Positions 4,929 through 33,093 of a stretch of 64,000 nt of DNA are shown one piece after another. Under the pieces are notes generated by a model, which was not told where the DNA came from, did not search any database, and saw only the letters and a program-made list of their open reading frames with translations. How positions within the stretch are numbered: the stretch's first letter is position 1; every line of letters begins with the position of its first letter. The stretch covers positions 3,162,001-3,226,000 of the forward strand of contig NZ_CP027869.1 in the NCBI RefSeq assembly GCF_005490985.1. The letters are read 5' to 3'. The position numbers were made by a program, and so were the translations under genes. This stretch comes from Curtobacterium sp. SGAir0471. GTDB lineage: Bacteria > Actinomycetota > Actinomycetes > Actinomycetales > Microbacteriaceae.

Positions 4929-6035
4929 GTGAACATCAAGCGAATCGGTTCGATCGCAGCGATCGCGATCGCCGGCGCCGTCGTGCTGTCCTCCTGCGCG
5001 GCGAACGAGAGCGGCAGCGGCGACACCGCTGCGCCGACCTCGAGCTCCGGCACCGACTACTCGAAGCTCTCGGGCACGCTGACCGGCTCCGGCTCGTCGG
5101 CGCAGCAGACCGCTGAGGCCACCTGGGCTGCGAACTTCCAGAACGTCGCCTCCGGCGTGACGGTCAACTACTCGCCGGACGGCTCCGGCGCCGGCCGCAA
5201 GAACTTCATCTCGGGTGCCGCGGACTTCGCCGGCTCCGATGCCGCGCTCAAGGACGAGGAGCTCTCGGGCTCGTTCGACCTGTGCACGGACAAGGCCATC
5301 GACATCCCGGTGTACATCTCCCCGATCGCCATCGCCTACAAGGTCGAGGGCGTCTCCGACCTGACGCTCGACGCGAAGACCATCGCGGGCATCTTCTCGG
5401 GCAAGATCACCAAGTGGAACGCCTCGGAGATCGCCGACCTGAACAAGGGCGTCGACCTGCCGGACGCGAACATCACCGTGATCCACCGCTCCGACGACTC
5501 GGGCACCACGCAGAACTTCTCCGAGTACGTCTCGGCGAACGCGTCGGACGTCTGGACCGAGGCCCCGAGCCAGACCTTCCCGTACCAGGTCGGCGACTCG
5601 GCCAAGGGCACCTCGGGCGTCGCCTCGGCGATGGCCAGCGCCTCGAACGCCATCACCTACATCGACGACTCCGGCGCCGGTGACCTCGACAAGGCGAAGC
5701 TCATGGTCGGCGACAAGGCCACCGAGATCTCGGCCGAGGGCGCTGCCAAGGTCGTCGCGGACTCCGACACGGTCTCGGGCCGCTCGGAGAACGACCTCGC
5801 GATCGACATCAACCGCAAGGACACCGCCGAGGGTGCGTGGCCGCTGGTCCTCGTCTCCTACGCGATCGCCTGCCAGGAGTACAAGGACGCCGACAAGGGT
5901 GCGCTCGTGAAGGGCTACCTCGACTACGTCGTCACGCAGGACGCGCAGGAGGCCGCCGCGAAGGAGGCCAAGTCGGCCGCCCTCTCGTCCGACCTGTCGG
6001 AGAAGGCCGCGAAGGCCGTCGCCTCCATCAAGTAA
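4929..6035 (+). CDS. pstS: Phosphate ABC transporter, substrate-binding lipoprotein PstS
   Basis: This is the high-affinity extracytoplasmic phosphate receptor of the Pst importer. The 368-residue protein starts with a lipoprotein signal peptide ending in VLSSC (Cys about residue 19), followed by a Ser/Gly/Thr-rich linker. The mature part carries LTGSGSSAQQ near residue 50 and RSDDSGTTQNFSEY near residue 190, the phosphate-binding loops of the PstS family. The GTG start has GAAGGGA upstream. A hairpin terminator and a repeat array separate it from pstC, which would let this receptor be made in excess over the membrane subunits. Confidence 0.97.
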   Translation: MNIKRIGSIAAIAIAGAVVLSSCAANESGSGDTAAPTSSSGTDYSKLSGTLTGSGSSAQQTAEATWAANFQNVASGVTVNYSPDGSGAGRKNFISGAADFAGSDAALKDEELSGSFDLCTDKAIDIPVYISPIAIAYKVEGVSDLTLDAKTIAGIFSGKITKWNASEIADLNKGVDLPDANITVIHRSDDSGTTQNFSEYVSANASDVWTEAPSQTFPYQVGDSAKGTSGVASAMASASNAITYIDDSGAGDLDKAKLMVGDKATEISAEGAAKVVADSDTVSGRSENDLAIDINRKDTAEGAWPLVLVSYAIACQEYKDADKGALVKGYLDYVVTQDAQEAAAKEAKSAALSSDLSEKAAKAVASIK

Positions 6036-6048
6036 GTCCCGCTGAGCA

Positions 6049-6090
6049 CCCGGACGCCGGTCCCACCCATCCTGACCGGCGTCCGGGTTC
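6049..6090 (+). terminator. Intra-operon hairpin after pstS
   Basis: A 13-bp perfect stem, CCCGGACGCCGGT (6049-6061) with ACCGGCGTCCGGG (6075-6087), is followed by TTCT. It lies 13 bp after the pstS stop. Partial termination here would lower pstC-A-B expression relative to pstS. Confidence 0.8.
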
Positions 6091-6104
6091 TCGCCCGTCC
6101 AGCC

Positions 6105-6243
6105 CGGACGCAGCACCAGCAGCACCGGCCCGACCGGACGCAGCACCGGCAGCACCGGCCCGACCGGACGCAGCACCAGCAGCACCGGCCCGATCGGACG
6201 CAGCACCAGCAGCACCGGCCCGACCGGACGCAGCACCAGCACC
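6105..6243. repeat. 30-bp tandem repeat, four and a half copies
   Basis: The unit starts CGGACGCAGCACCAGCAGCA and ends CCGGCCCGAC. Copies start at 6105, 6135, 6165, 6195 and 6225 (partial), with only one or two substitutions each. It fills the pstS-pstC gap. The 30-bp period keeps any reading frame open, but there is no start signal, so I read it as non-coding. Confidence 0.85.
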
Positions 6244-6306
6244 ACCCCCGTCGCCTCCCCCGGCCGCTCCCCCACGGAGCCCGGCCTCCCCTCCGACAGG
6301 AGTCCC

Positions 6307-12445: not shown

Positions 12446-12482
12446 GAGGCCCTCACCCGCTAGCCTTGCGGGTGAGGGCCTC
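12446..12482 (+). terminator. Perfect hairpin whose right arm is the tRNA-Lys 5' end
   Basis: GAGGCCCTCACCCGC (12446-12460) pairs perfectly over 15 bp with GCGGGTGAGGGCCTC (12468-12482) across a TAGCCTT loop. The last seven bases of the right arm (12476-12482) are the 5' acceptor strand of tRNA-Lys. It can terminate the small membrane-protein gene. The loop contains TAGCCT, a possible -10 for the tRNA. Confidence 0.75.
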
Positions 12483-12548
12483 TAGCTCAGTTGGTAGAGC
12501 ACCGGACTTTTAATCCGAGGGTCGTGGGTTCGAGCCCCACGGGGCCCA
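12476..12548 (+). tRNA. tRNA-Lys (anticodon TTT)
   Basis: The cloverleaf folds as follows: acceptor GGGCCTC with GGGGCCC, a D arm in TAGCTCAGTTGGTAGAGC, anticodon loop CTTTTAA (TTT), T arm GTGGG-TTCGAGC-CCCAC, and discriminator A at 12548. The base pair at 27-43 is C-A, so the anticodon stem has one mismatch. CCA is not encoded. No integrase lies nearby, so this tRNA is not visibly used as an attachment site. Confidence 0.97.
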
Positions 12549-12729
12549 CCTTCTTCCCCGCGCGAGGCCCCACCGGGGTACAACCCGGACACAGGATGTT
12601 CATGGTGCGTCTTGTGCACAGTCCAGTCCCCGCTCAGCGGTTTGCCTGCACGACGCCGATAGTGTCGTTCCCGGTCCTTTTCCACGGACCGAACAGCACC
12701 GCAGCACCAGAGAACGAACGGGGTACACC

Positions 12730-27879: not shown

Positions 27880-29439
27880 TCACTGGTGGAGGAAGTCCTG
27901 GCGGGGCTGATCCGGCTCGGGTGCGAAGCGGATCCGCAGCACGGGGCCGCTGTGCTCGGTCGTGGAACCGTCGACCGCCACCTCGAGGGCGTCCGGTGTC
28001 CGGTCCCACCGGGTGACGGTGCCGGATCCGAGCACCGCGACGTCGCTGATCGTGCGGGTGAGGAGCGCGGAGGTCGACGCGAGGGCGCGCAGCCGTGCGA
28101 CGCCGTCGTCGGGCTGCGCGAGCAGGACCGCGTAGAGGGCGTCACCCGTGACGTCGTGCCGCATCGTGTAGCGGACGTCCTCCGCCGTGTACGCGGGGGC
28201 GGCACCGTCGACGAAGGACCCCGACGCGACCACGGTCGGCCCCTCGGACGGCACCGTCCAGGGGCGGGTGCCGTAGATCGCCTCACCGTGCAGACCGAGC
28301 CAGTGCCCGATGCCCTCGAGCAGGCGCTGCTCCTCGTCCGGGATCGTGCCGTCCGGCTTCGGACCGACGTTGAGCAGCAGCACCCCGCGCTTCGCGACGA
28401 CGTCGACGAGCTCGGCGACGAGTTCGCGGACGCTCTTGTACTCGTGTCCCTCCACCCAGCACCAGGACGTCCGGGACACCGACGTGTCGTTCTGCCACAC
28501 CGTGGGCTCGACCCCCGCGACGGCTCCGCGTTCGATGTCGTACACGGCGGTGCCGGGCGCGAAGGCCCCCCACTTGTAGTTGATGACGACCTCGCGCCCC
28601 CACTCGGCCGCACGGTTGTAGTAGTAGGCGGCGAGCGTCCGCAGCACCGGGGCGAACGCCGGCTGCTCGATCCACCAGTCGAACCAGAGCACCTGCGGCC
28701 GGTACCGGTCGATCACCTCGACGGTGCGCAGGAGCCAGTCCTCGAGGAACCGCTCGTTCGGGGCCGTCTCCTCCCGCTGTGCCGGGCCGTAGAAGTCCGA
28801 CCACCGCGGGTCGAGCACGTCGGAGTCGAACCGGGCACCGCCGTTCATGAAGAACCAGTGCTCGGCACGGTGCGACGAGGCACCGCGGACCATCCAGGCC
28901 TCGTCGACCGCGCGGGAGAGCTCCCCGAAGACGTCATGCTGTGGCCCCATCCGGGCCGCACTCCACCGGGACCGGTCCGTGTCGTACATCGCGAAGCCGT
29001 CGTGGTGCTCGGCCACGGGCACGACGAACTGCGCGCCGGCCCGACGGAACAGCGCGGCCCACCCGGCCGGGTCGAAGTGCTCCATCGTGAAGGACGGGAT
29101 GAAGTCCTTGTACCCGAAGTCCCGGTGCTCGCCGTAGGTCGCGCGGTGGTGCTCGTGGGCGTCGGTGCCCTGCCGGTACATCTCGCGGGAGTACCACTCG
29201 TTGCCGAACGCCGGGACGGAGTACACGCCCCAGTGCAGGAAGACGCCGAACTTCGCGTCCTCGTACCAGCGCGGCGGCTCGTAGGCGGCGAGGGACTCCC
29301 ACGTCGCGTCGAACGGTCCGGCGGCGACGACCTCGTGCACGGCCCGCAGCGCTGCACTGTTGTCGCTCACGTCGACCGGTTCCGGGAGCGACCCGGGGTC
29401 GAGCGGGGTGGGACGGCCCGACACGGCGCGTTCTGTCAT
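27880..29439 (-). CDS. Alpha-L-fucosidase (GH29)
   Basis: The enzyme releases L-fucose from glycans. The 519-residue protein has the GH29 N-terminal block WYEDAKFGVFLHWGVYSVPA (about residues 57-76), FVVPVAEHHDGFAMYD, the probable nucleophile Asp in QVLWFDWW near residue 244 and LLLNVGPKPDGTIP. No signal peptide is visible, so it probably acts on imported oligosaccharides. The ATG at 29439 has AGGAGT 6-11 nt upstream. It is a lone gene; no fucose catabolic genes are alongside. Confidence 0.93.
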   Translation of the reverse strand: MTERAVSGRPTPLDPGSLPEPVDVSDNSAALRAVHEVVAAGPFDATWESLAAYEPPRWYEDAKFGVFLHWGVYSVPAFGNEWYSREMYRQGTDAHEHHRATYGEHRDFGYKDFIPSFTMEHFDPAGWAALFRRAGAQFVVPVAEHHDGFAMYDTDRSRWSAARMGPQHDVFGELSRAVDEAWMVRGASSHRAEHWFFMNGGARFDSDVLDPRWSDFYGPAQREETAPNERFLEDWLLRTVEVIDRYRPQVLWFDWWIEQPAFAPVLRTLAAYYYNRAAEWGREVVINYKWGAFAPGTAVYDIERGAVAGVEPTVWQNDTSVSRTSWCWVEGHEYKSVRELVAELVDVVAKRGVLLLNVGPKPDGTIPDEEQRLLEGIGHWLGLHGEAIYGTRPWTVPSEGPTVVASGSFVDGAAPAYTAEDVRYTMRHDVTGDALYAVLLAQPDDGVARLRALASTSALLTRTISDVAVLGSGTVTRWDRTPDALEVAVDGSTTEHSGPVLRIRFAPEPDQPRQDFLHQ

Positions 29440-29760
29440 GCGGCACTCCTTCGTGCGTCGACTGCGGTCCACCACTCCTATCGGTCGGACCCGTGTGTCC
29501 GGTGGATCGCGTGCGGCCTGTGGCGGGCGGTCAGGGCAGCCGGACGACGACCAGGGCCGTCGACGGACCCCGCACTACTCGCTCATCCGGCAGATACCAG
29601 CGTCAACCAGCGACTTTGATCCCAAGCATCCACTCTGGTGGGATGGCTCGGAAATACTCCGGCCGAGACTGTCATCGACTGCTGAAGCCGACTCCCCGTT
29701 TGCAGCACGATGAAGCACTCCAGCAGGTTCACTAAGCCATCGGGGGCGACGCACAACACT

Positions 29761-30453
29761 CTAGAGTTCGGGATAATCATCCAAGGCGCTAGCCACCTCG
29801 GCATCAACAAATGTTGACCCGATTTTAGCCAATTCCTTGATGTAGTGGCGCACTTCAGCGAAAGGACCCGATTGCAACGTTTCCAAAACCAAAGACGCTT
29901 GCTTCGGCCGGGCATCGACCAGCCGCACGTAATCCACAACTAGGCTACTGAACGTGACAGCGGCGTCACGACGACCTCGCGTTAGTCTGTCCCGATTCAG
30001 GTCGAATATCTCGATATTTACCAGGCCTCGCCGCGTCCGCGCTGTGATCTCACCGAGTACGAGGTCAACACTCAAATCAGTGCGTGGGTCCTCGACCGTA
30101 GGGTCGATCAAGTCGGGGGTCCCAGCGGTTACAGGGAACCGATTTCTTTTGCGGTTCGAGTTGCAAAACGAACACGCGAGGAGCCAGTTGACCCAAGTGA
30201 ACGTTTGCTCGTGATAGGTCGAACGGGGGTAGAAGTGTTCGATATCCGTTGCCTCATTATCGCCGCAGTACATGCAGTATTGTCGACCATTAGCCATTTC
30301 TTCGAGAGTGCGTCGGATGCTCGCGACCCGAACGCGGTCCCGGGCACGCCACGCCCCTTCGGCCGCCTCTTTTGACTGCCTCGCTTTCTCCGCCTCGGCA
30401 TTCAGATAGTTCTCATCCTCCAGCTGGAGGGACAACCTCTCGAGCCTAATCAA
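29761..30453 (-). CDS. HNH endonuclease, PtuB-like
   Basis: The 230-residue protein has a helical N-terminus (residues 1-50) and a zinc-finger HNH core. CMYCG (about residue 60) and CSFCNSNRK (about residue 94) form a CxxC...CxxC zinc site, and TDIEHFYPRS between them carries the catalytic histidine. Trp-Val-Asn precedes the second CxxC as in PtuB. The TTG start overlaps the ATPase stop (TTGA), so the two are coupled. In Septu, PtuB is the nuclease effector recruited by the PtuA ATPase. Function here is inferred from architecture and pairing. Confidence 0.85.
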   Translation of the reverse strand: MIRLERLSLQLEDENYLNAEAEKARQSKEAAEGAWRARDRVRVASIRRTLEEMANGRQYCMYCGDNEATDIEHFYPRSTYHEQTFTWVNWLLACSFCNSNRKRNRFPVTAGTPDLIDPTVEDPRTDLSVDLVLGEITARTRRGLVNIEIFDLNRDRLTRGRRDAAVTFSSLVVDYVRLVDARPKQASLVLETLQSGPFAEVRHYIKELAKIGSTFVDAEVASALDDYPEL

Positions 30454-31784
30454 ATCTCCGCCGCCAGTCGCTGGTTCAACCTGGCCAGTGCCATGGCCAC
30501 CTCATCGGAAGGGGTGACGCCCATATCGATCTTGGCTTCGTCGGTAAGTGGAGCGGAATCACCCCGCTCTACAGCCTCTCGCCACGCATCGCGGCGACGA
30601 TTGGTCTCGAGGCCGTAAGTAGTTTCGAGGCCGAACAACTCGCTCATCACAACCTGGTCAGCATCGCCATTGACAATTCGCCTAAACTCATCCTGTTCTA
30701 TCACTCGCGGCACTCGGTCTGCTTCGTCTGGCGCAGCCAGGCGAATCAATCCACGTGAACTTGCCGCTTGCACTATGAAAGGACTATGTGTAGATACAAT
30801 GAATTGGATGGCTGGGAAATGCTCGCGCATCCAGAAACCGATACGCTGCTGCCAACTTACATGTAAATGAACATCGACCTCGTCGATAAGTACAACACCC
30901 GGTTGTGAGCAAAATACCGAGCCGTCGTCGCGACTTTGCAGCTCGAAGCGGCCATATGAGGCGACTAGTCTCCTGATGACGTCTAGCACGAGTGCAGAAA
31001 CGACTCGATATCCGTCACTCATTTCTTCTAGAAGAAAACTATTGCCGTTCTGCTCAATCCAGAGCCCGTCCGAATTATACTGGGACACCCGAGAGTGTTC
31101 CGGCAAAAGCCCATCATCAAGCATCCGGATGACATCATCCTGCAACCCTTTAGCGGCCGCATCTCCTTCCAATACCTTCGGGTAGAGCTCCTGCAACCAC
31201 CAGGTGGATTCCGCCAAGGAAGCGGACTCATCGAACAGTGTGACTAGCGCAGAGGTTCTTTTATTTCCCAACATCAGCCTTTGAGCTTCCGCAGCCGCTC
31301 CTGTCAAGCGCCGGAAGGGACCGTACCCAGCCATAAACCATCCAACGGGATTGTCCGACCACGGCCCTCGTCGAGCAGTCAGCTTCGGCGCGCTTGGTGG
31401 AAGAGACTCCGTCATTTCAGGCACTGGGCCGGCCGTCGTGCGCTCCCAACGCAGACCCGCCCATGGTTGCCGCTTCGGCGGGGCGCCGCCGGGGCTAAGG
31501 GCGTCTCCTTCGCCAACGCTAAAGGCTGCCTGTATCAGCCCACTTTCCGCCCCGTCGCTCACCCAGTGCGAGAAACTTGGAACGAGCGTTCTCGCCACGT
31601 TCGGTCCCGCAAGCGCGAGGGATATCGCCCGGAGGAAAGTAGTTTTCCCGCTTCCATTTCGGCCGGCGAGCACAGTCCACCCCGCGTAGCCACCGTCGTC
31701 TCTCTTGAAATTGAGACGGGCTGGACCGTCAGGCGTTCGGAATCCGCGGATATTCTCAAAAACTAGGCTCTCGAGATACACCAT
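30450..31784 (-). CDS. RecF/AAA15-type ATPase, PtuA-like
   Basis: The 444-residue protein begins with the SMC/RecF-like VYLESLVFENIRGFR and Walker A LAGRNGSGKTTFLR (about residues 33-46). A signature-like MSDGYRVV lies near residue 255, followed by Walker B VVLIDEVDVHLH near residue 302 and the switch histidine in FIVSTHSPFIV. There is no long coiled coil and no TOPRIM domain, unlike OLD nucleases or SMC proteins. AGGAG precedes the ATG by one base and the next codon, GTG, by four, so GTG at 31781 may be the true start. With the coupled HNH gene it matches the two-gene Septu system. Confidence 0.85.
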   Translation of the reverse strand: MVYLESLVFENIRGFRTPDGPARLNFKRDDGGYAGWTVLAGRNGSGKTTFLRAISLALAGPNVARTLVPSFSHWVSDGAESGLIQAAFSVGEGDALSPGGAPPKRQPWAGLRWERTTAGPVPEMTESLPPSAPKLTARRGPWSDNPVGWFMAGYGPFRRLTGAAAEAQRLMLGNKRTSALVTLFDESASLAESTWWLQELYPKVLEGDAAAKGLQDDVIRMLDDGLLPEHSRVSQYNSDGLWIEQNGNSFLLEEMSDGYRVVSALVLDVIRRLVASYGRFELQSRDDGSVFCSQPGVVLIDEVDVHLHVSWQQRIGFWMREHFPAIQFIVSTHSPFIVQAASSRGLIRLAAPDEADRVPRVIEQDEFRRIVNGDADQVVMSELFGLETTYGLETNRRRDAWREAVERGDSAPLTDEAKIDMGVTPSDEVAMALARLNQRLAAEI

Positions 31785-31923
31785 GCTCCTAGGTCGATGT
31801 TCCCGTGAGTCTACGCCAGCCGAATCGTGCCGACACAGCAGGGCACGCCCAATAGCCTGGAAGGTAGAAGCTTCCAGTGCACCAACGAAGGCGGCTGCCA
31901 CTGTCGACTGCCAGGCTGGGCGC

Positions 31924-33093
31924 ATGAGCGTCATGGTCTCGGTCTTCGATGCACAACGGACCCGCACGAGCGAGAAGTACACGGCCTACCCGCCCGAGGT
32001 CCTGCCGATGTTCGTCGCCGAGATGGACTCGGTCCCCGCCGAGCCGGTGCGCGAGGCCCTCGCGCGAGCGATCCGGAACGGGGACACCGGGTACGTCGGG
32101 CACGCCCGGGTGCTCCCCGAGGTGTTCGCCGACTTCGCCGAGCGCCGTTGGGGGTGGGACGTCGACCCAGACCTCGTCCGGACCACCACGGACGTGTCGG
32201 TCGCGGCGGTCGAGGTGCTCCGACGGATCATCGACCCCGGCGACCAGGTCGTCCTCATGCCGCCGGTCTACCCGCCGTTCTGGGAGTACGTCCGCGAGGC
32301 CAGCGGATCCGCCACCGAGGTCCCGCTGCTCGCCCCGGAGGGCGCCCCCGACCCGTTCGACACGACGGCCGGGTGGCGGATGGACCTGGCCGGGATCGAG
32401 CGCGCCCTCGCCGACGGCGCCCGGACGGTGCTGCTCTGCAACCCGCACAACCCCCTCGGCCTCGTGCACGCGCGCGAGGACCTCGTGGCACTCGCCCGGC
32501 TCGCCGCCGAGTGGGACGCGGTCGTGGTGTCAGACGAGATCCACGCGCCGCTCGTGCACGCCGACGCGGTGTTCACCCCGTTCCTCACCTGCGGACCCGA
32601 GGCCGTGGGGCACGGCGTCGCCCTGACGAGCGCGAGCAAGGCGTGGAACCTGGCGGGGACGAAGTGCGCCCTGATGGTCGGCGCGTCCGAGCGGGCCCGC
32701 GGCTGGTTCGACGGGCTGCCCGTCGAGGTGGTCGAGCGCACCGGGATCCTCGGGTACACCGCGAGCGTCGCCGCCTTCCGCGACGGGGAGCCCTGGCTCG
32801 CGTCGCTGCTCGCCGAGCTGGCCGCGAACCGACGCATCCTGGCCGAGGAGCTCGGCACCGCCCTGCCCGGCGCGGGGTACCGGCAGCCGCAGGCGTCCTA
32901 CCTGGCCTGGCTCGACCTGCGAGCACTGCCCTGGGGCGACGACCCCGCCGTGCACCTGGTCGACGCAGCGAAGGTCGCGCTGACGAACGGTCGTGACTTC
33001 GGGCGACCGGGCATCGGCCACGCACGGCTCAACTTCGGGTGCTCCGAGGAGACCCTGCGCGAGGGCCTGGCCCGCCTGGCGTCGGCCCGCTGA
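31924..33093 (+). CDS. MalY/PatB-family PLP-dependent C-S lyase or aminotransferase
   Basis: The 389-residue fold-type I enzyme has PPEVLPMFVAEMDSVPAEPV (about residues 22-41), PPVYPPFWEYV, LLCNPHNPLG, VVSDEIHAPLV and the PLP lysine in SASKAWNLAGTKCA near residue 240. These are the PatB/MalY blocks, usually cystathionine beta-lyase. The enzyme may alternatively be an aminotransferase. A CAGGCT box lies 6 nt before the ATG at 31924; the in-frame ATG at 31933 is also possible. It abuts the defence island but has host-like composition. Confidence 0.88.
   Translation: MSVMVSVFDAQRTRTSEKYTAYPPEVLPMFVAEMDSVPAEPVREALARAIRNGDTGYVGHARVLPEVFADFAERRWGWDVDPDLVRTTTDVSVAAVEVLRRIIDPGDQVVLMPPVYPPFWEYVREASGSATEVPLLAPEGAPDPFDTTAGWRMDLAGIERALADGARTVLLCNPHNPLGLVHAREDLVALARLAAEWDAVVVSDEIHAPLVHADAVFTPFLTCGPEAVGHGVALTSASKAWNLAGTKCALMVGASERARGWFDGLPVEVVERTGILGYTASVAAFRDGEPWLASLLAELAANRRILAEELGTALPGAGYRQPQASYLAWLDLRALPWGDDPAVHLVDAAKVALTNGRDFGRPGIGHARLNFGCSEETLREGLARLASAR

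Follow-up and report, generated by a model that had tools for sequence, protein, structure and literature searches.

A ptuAB pair of canonical Septu type I form in Curtobacterium sp. SGAir0471, probably gained horizontally by block replacement

In Septu, an oligomer of the ATPase PtuA reportedly restrains the nuclease PtuB, a result ascribed to Li et al. 2024 (NSMB). For the E. coli system Septu Ec-B88, PMC13096335 describes that substitutions in Walker A or Walker B of PtuA, or of H75 or N91 in PtuB, abolish defence, and that the variable loop of tRNA-Tyr is cut when phage infects. Where a reverse transcriptase gene precedes the pair, PADLOC calls the system Septu type II, according to PMC8565338. 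Here, we analysed a 64,000-nucleotide stretch of Curtobacterium sp. SGAir0471 (the window) that carries such an ATPase/HNH pair. It is very likely a canonical Septu type I system in the order ptuA then ptuB, probably gained horizontally by replacement of a block of genes, and by analogy probably antiphage.

The gene pair and its family assignment

Both genes lie on the minus strand. ptuA (30450–31784, ATG start) encodes an ABC/AAA_21-type ATPase of 444 aa, as assigned by PADLOC, Pfam and motifs, and ptuB (29761–30453, TTG start) encodes an HNH endonuclease of 230 aa, as assigned by PADLOC, Pfam and invariant residues. In the window's open reading frames, ptuB follows ptuA directly on the same strand, its start overlapping the stop of ptuA by 4 nt (TTGA, 30450–30453, minus strand). 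By first residue, the ATPase carries Walker A GRNGSGKT at 41, the signature EMSDG at 254, Walker B IDEVD at 300 and the H-switch STHSP at 331, while the HNH protein carries CMYC at 60, EHF at 72 and CSFC at 94. These frames and motifs agree with the sequence-only reading, which had described two genes overlapping by TTGA and coding for 444 and 230 aa, with Walker A, Walker B, a switch His, two CxxC pairs and an EHF core.

The key residues of Walker A, the signature, Walker B and the H-switch are intact in PtuA and invariant across the aligned relatives. This includes K47, D301, E302 and H333 in the 8-sequence PtuA alignment (A2, which leaves out L076 and L078). Likewise, C60, C63, H73, N89, C94 and C97 of PtuB are invariant in the 9-sequence alignment (A1, which leaves out L076). 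Identity to the aligned copies is 31–47% for PtuA and 26–37% for PtuB. The spacing of H73 and N89 in PtuB (16 residues) equals that of H75 and N91 in Ec-B88, as given in PMC13096335. As judged from their sequences, the two window proteins have what activity requires.

The real ptuA start may be the GTG at 31781, giving 443 aa, because the annotation of five plasmid relatives begins PtuA at GTG-Tyr or ATG-Tyr, a start that aligns with the second codon (GTG) and Tyr3 of the window gene, and because AGGAG lies only 1 nt ahead of the window ATG. A promoter scan predicted 0 promoters (1.0 expected), and 3 terminator-like sites were found (2.1 expected).

We compared both proteins with the PADLOC library of 2023. 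The ATPase matched PtuA1 (PDLC00269, 446 positions) at 2.7e-139 and 463 bits, with residues 2–400 on positions 1–401, and the HNH protein matched PtuB1 (PDLC00317, 244 positions) at 1.4e-58 and 197 bits, with residues 1–210 on positions 1–214. As both proteins match curated PtuA and PtuB models, the observation lies far beyond chance. Pfam AAA_21 (ATPase, 1.4e-20) and Pfam HNH (PtuB, 1.3e-05) were above their cut-offs, each among other Pfam matches. Searching solved structures with the single sequences placed PtuA and PtuB chains at the top, mostly from type I-A retrons. With profiles of the aligned relatives, PtuB matched structures of retron I-A PtuB (3.5e-18 for the best of them) and, at 1.9e-10, the PtuB of 8ee7, and PtuA matched retron Ec83 PtuA at 1.5e-31 and the PtuA of 8ee4 at 2.2e-29; we take 8ee4 and 8ee7 to be E. 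coli Septu proteins. The profile matches put the pair in PtuA1/PtuB1 and not in unrelated housekeeping families, which bears out the Septu identity and the PtuA–PtuB order proposed earlier, and we regard the assignment to Septu as almost certain.

Relatives and distribution

A tblastn search of PtuA against 72,556 plasmid records matched 90 of them, 43 at a coverage of at least 80%, and the best four plasmid matches were from Streptomyces and Kitasatospora (about 47% identity in PtuA). We collected 11 related loci, comprising 6 annotated plasmid regions and 5 genome regions, after dropping L068 from a set of 12 as the same place as L075. In 10/11 of these loci, tblastn found a PtuB-like match lying downstream of PtuA and in the same orientation. 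The remaining locus, L077 (G020), has a PtuA-like ATPase with no PtuB match nearby at E ≤ 1e-2, and this ATPase is possibly solitary or otherwise paired. In the more distant locus L076, the PtuB-like protein lacks the second CxxC pair. The PtuB proteins of the Streptomyces plasmids (L069–L071) are extended at the C-terminus by about 110 residues that the window PtuB lacks. Eight phage records gave partial matches, none reaching 80% query coverage. A peptide-pattern search of genome contigs matched 21 stretches, none of which encodes a relative, perhaps owing to poor conservation of peptide patterns drawn from a single sequence.

Gene overlap was examined in nine relatives (L069–L076 and L078; L079 was left out, having short matches only). 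By a rule that takes whichever ptuB start lies closest to the stop of ptuA, and so favours overlap, ptuB overlaps ptuA in 9/9 (by 4 nt in five, 1 nt in two, 8 nt in one and 11 nt in one), and the start codon is GTG in four, ATG in four and TTG in one. In the deposited annotation of the six plasmids, ptuB starts inside ptuA in four and past the ptuA stop in two (L069 and L072). Coupling is therefore widespread among relatives and a TTG start is nothing particular, which leaves the earlier suggestion that a coupled TTG start limits nuclease synthesis unsupported. The proteins had been called diverged; their lengths are ordinary in view of the model lengths and of PtuA in relatives (398–474 aa). 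Nor is this an under-described system, as the sequence-only reading had put it, because the public models cover the pair almost from end to end and the Streptomyces and Kitasatospora plasmids hold copies 47% identical in PtuA. The pair is an ordinary, already described Septu type I.

ptuA is patchily distributed. At E ≤ 0.001, PtuA had a match in 5/66 genus genomes (own included), and the best of these besides its own copy was 31% identical (2.4e-16). At E ≤ 1e-40, a copy was found in 0/65 other genomes of the genus, in 1/397 other genomes of the family sample (2/398 with its own) and in 0/395 other genomes of the phylum sample (1/396 with its own), the family and phylum samples being drawn from larger groups. 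Given this rarity and its low GC, the locus is neither shared by all relatives nor host-like in composition.

The low-GC segment and its insertion site

The pair lies on a segment (29582–31908, no strand) that we regard as foreign, as alignment to relatives stops there and its GC is 56.9%. Over 29585–31908, this value is the lowest in the window, which averages 71%; stretches of 2,323 bp outside 29000–32400 (step 50) have a mean GC of 71.9% (sd 2.0%, minimum 66.3%). The drop in base composition against the flanks, seen in the initial reading, is thus confirmed. GC3 is 0.58 in ptuA and 0.64 in ptuB versus 0.92–0.98 in four neighbouring genes. Alignment to relatives puts the left junction at about 29581–29584 and the right junction at about 31908–31909, with the G065 alignment stopping at 29584 and resuming at 31923, and the G023 alignment stopping at 29581 and resuming at 31908. 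By Pfam, the left neighbour is an alpha-L-fucosidase (27880–29475), matched in 22/66 genus genomes at E ≤ 1e-50, and the right neighbour is a class I/II aminotransferase (from 31924), matched in 60/60 genus genomes searched, the best match in G002 being short and weak (2.4e-17).

At the same site, G065 and G023 carry about 2.4 kb of 74.5–74.8% GC between the alignment breaks. This block codes for a putative lipoprotein (read as such from its N-terminus; Pfam gave no match), an HTH regulator (also labelled XRE) whose ligand domain is MmyB-like, and a short-chain dehydrogenase (SDR). The lipoprotein gene is whole in both genomes (L059 and L060), whereas the window retains only its final ~16 codons, at 29530–29584 on the minus strand. 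The sequence-only reading had proposed to look in related strains for an empty site: the site in G065 and G023 is indeed free of ptuAB, but it is occupied by the lipoprotein/HTH/SDR block. SDR and regulator genes adjoin the aminotransferase in 4/29 loci (G065, G023, G005 and G006, among L008–L036, each covering about 1.5 kb on that side, with weaker 35–40% SDR matches in L014, L019, L030 and L031 uncounted). Of the four relatives whose aminotransferase is most similar, G065 and G023 have the regulator/SDR block and G039 and G050 do not; as these last two also lack it, the regulator/SDR block is not fixed in the lineage, which counts against gain by replacement. In the genome of SGAir0471 itself, the best matches are 47% identical for the SDR and 48% for the regulator, which shows that the block is missing and has not been relocated.

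Most simply read, about 2.4 kb was replaced by about 2.3 kb carrying ptuAB. The relatives' block in place of ptuAB, together with the lipoprotein remnant, points to horizontal acquisition, and we infer that the replacement was a gain of ptuAB, since a gene remnant is left, the composition is foreign and ptuA is rare.

Two other relatives differ in their arrangement here. At L061 (G039, 5373–5486), a nagA-like amidohydrolase frame directly adjoins the aminotransferase, and of the SDR gene about 55 nt persist from its 3' end (a 115-column match, 80%), an arrangement that suggests repeated turnover at the site. At L062 (G050, 5624–6286), the putative lipoprotein gene is present between a glyoxalase-like gene and the aminotransferase, and the fucosidase and the regulator/SDR genes are absent from that interval.

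We also considered how the segment might have been carried. The repeat search found no pair joining both segment junctions. An 18-nt direct repeat (29570–29587) spans the left junction and has its partner inside ptuA (30631–30648, 89%), and near the left junction there is an arm of a 19-nt inverted repeat (29597–29615) whose partner is also inside ptuA; short two-copy repeat families such as these are often due to chance. Carriage by a repeat-flanked element was dropped, as the junctions are not joined by any repeat pair. A tRNA insertion site was dropped as well, since the sole tRNA found in the window (12476–12550) is 17 kb away.

Mode of action, alternative readings and known systems

Judging from studied relatives, PtuA would be an ATP-binding oligomer that keeps the PtuB nuclease in check. 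Phage infection would lift this restraint, and PtuB would then block phage replication by cutting an essential nucleic acid, of which tRNA is the slightly likelier candidate. By analogy, ptuAB of the window probably has antiphage activity.

We considered whether the pair could be something other than Septu type I. As effectors of a type I-A retron (Septu type II), the two genes would be expected to have a reverse transcriptase nearby. The NCBIfam models for retron Ec78 PtuA and Ec78 PtuB and TIGR02646 do match, but all three fall under their curated cut-offs (111.3 of 500, 43.6 of 150 and 42.3 of 52.15 bits), and a whole-genome RVT_1 search at E ≤ 0.001 found no reverse transcriptase beside ptuAB. 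The one RVT_1 match in the genome (L086, G000:C1:1501687-1502298, in a 541-aa open frame at 1.50 Mb) is outside the window (3.16–3.23 Mb), about 1.7 Mb away, and the pair is therefore Septu type I and not a type I-A retron; with the reverse transcriptase unlinked and the cut-offs missed, we dropped the retron reading, to which we give next to no credence. A second reading, type IV methyl-directed restriction (PADLOC mREase_IV), in which modified DNA would be recognised, draws on the second-best model for each protein (PDLC03660 at 1.7e-77 for the ATPase and PDLC03661 at 8.8e-34 for the HNH protein). These are outscored by PtuA1 (463 versus 259 bits) and PtuB1 (197 versus 115 bits), whose best stretches are also longer, and mREase_IV, which we consider very improbable, was dropped on these scores.

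Within Septu type I, the target of PtuB has to be weighed. By analogy with studied systems, we lean slightly towards tRNA rather than DNA. The same system could instead have PtuB degrade invading (nicked) phage DNA, a quite conceivable course that we do not favour: PMC11555353, on Septu, counts towards it, as does the HNH domain of this PtuB with its two CxxC pairs, while another E. coli Septu cuts tRNA-Tyr, as described in PMC13096335. The solved PtuAB are only distantly similar to the window pair and the second CxxC pair is missing from retron I-A PtuB (two structure-search alignments) and from L076, so the substrate may not carry over. It is unlikely, though conceivable, that the Septu subfamily formed by the window pair and the Streptomyces and Kitasatospora plasmid copies, in which both PtuB CxxC pairs are intact and identity to the copies found is at most 47%, differs from the studied E. 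coli PtuAB in its trigger or in the nucleic acid it cuts.

The locus adds one more well-bounded Septu type I in a high-GC genome and leaves the picture of the family unchanged; it could also be used to test whether the target reported for E. coli PtuAB, tRNA or DNA, holds elsewhere in bacteria. Compared with known systems, the PADLOC mREase_IV pair consists of a related ATPase and HNH protein, against which the window proteins score much lower than against PtuA1/PtuB1. The PtuAB of type I-A retrons (Ec78/Ec83) are homologous ATPase and HNH effectors, whereas the window pair is without a linked reverse transcriptase, stays under the NCBIfam cut-offs and keeps the second CxxC pair. Set beside Septu type I, the window ptuB has a TTG start, and no difference is demonstrably beyond the spread of the family; the likeness comprises an ATPase gene followed by an HNH gene, overlap of the two genes, near-full-length matches to PtuA1 and PtuB1, and conservation of the essential residues.
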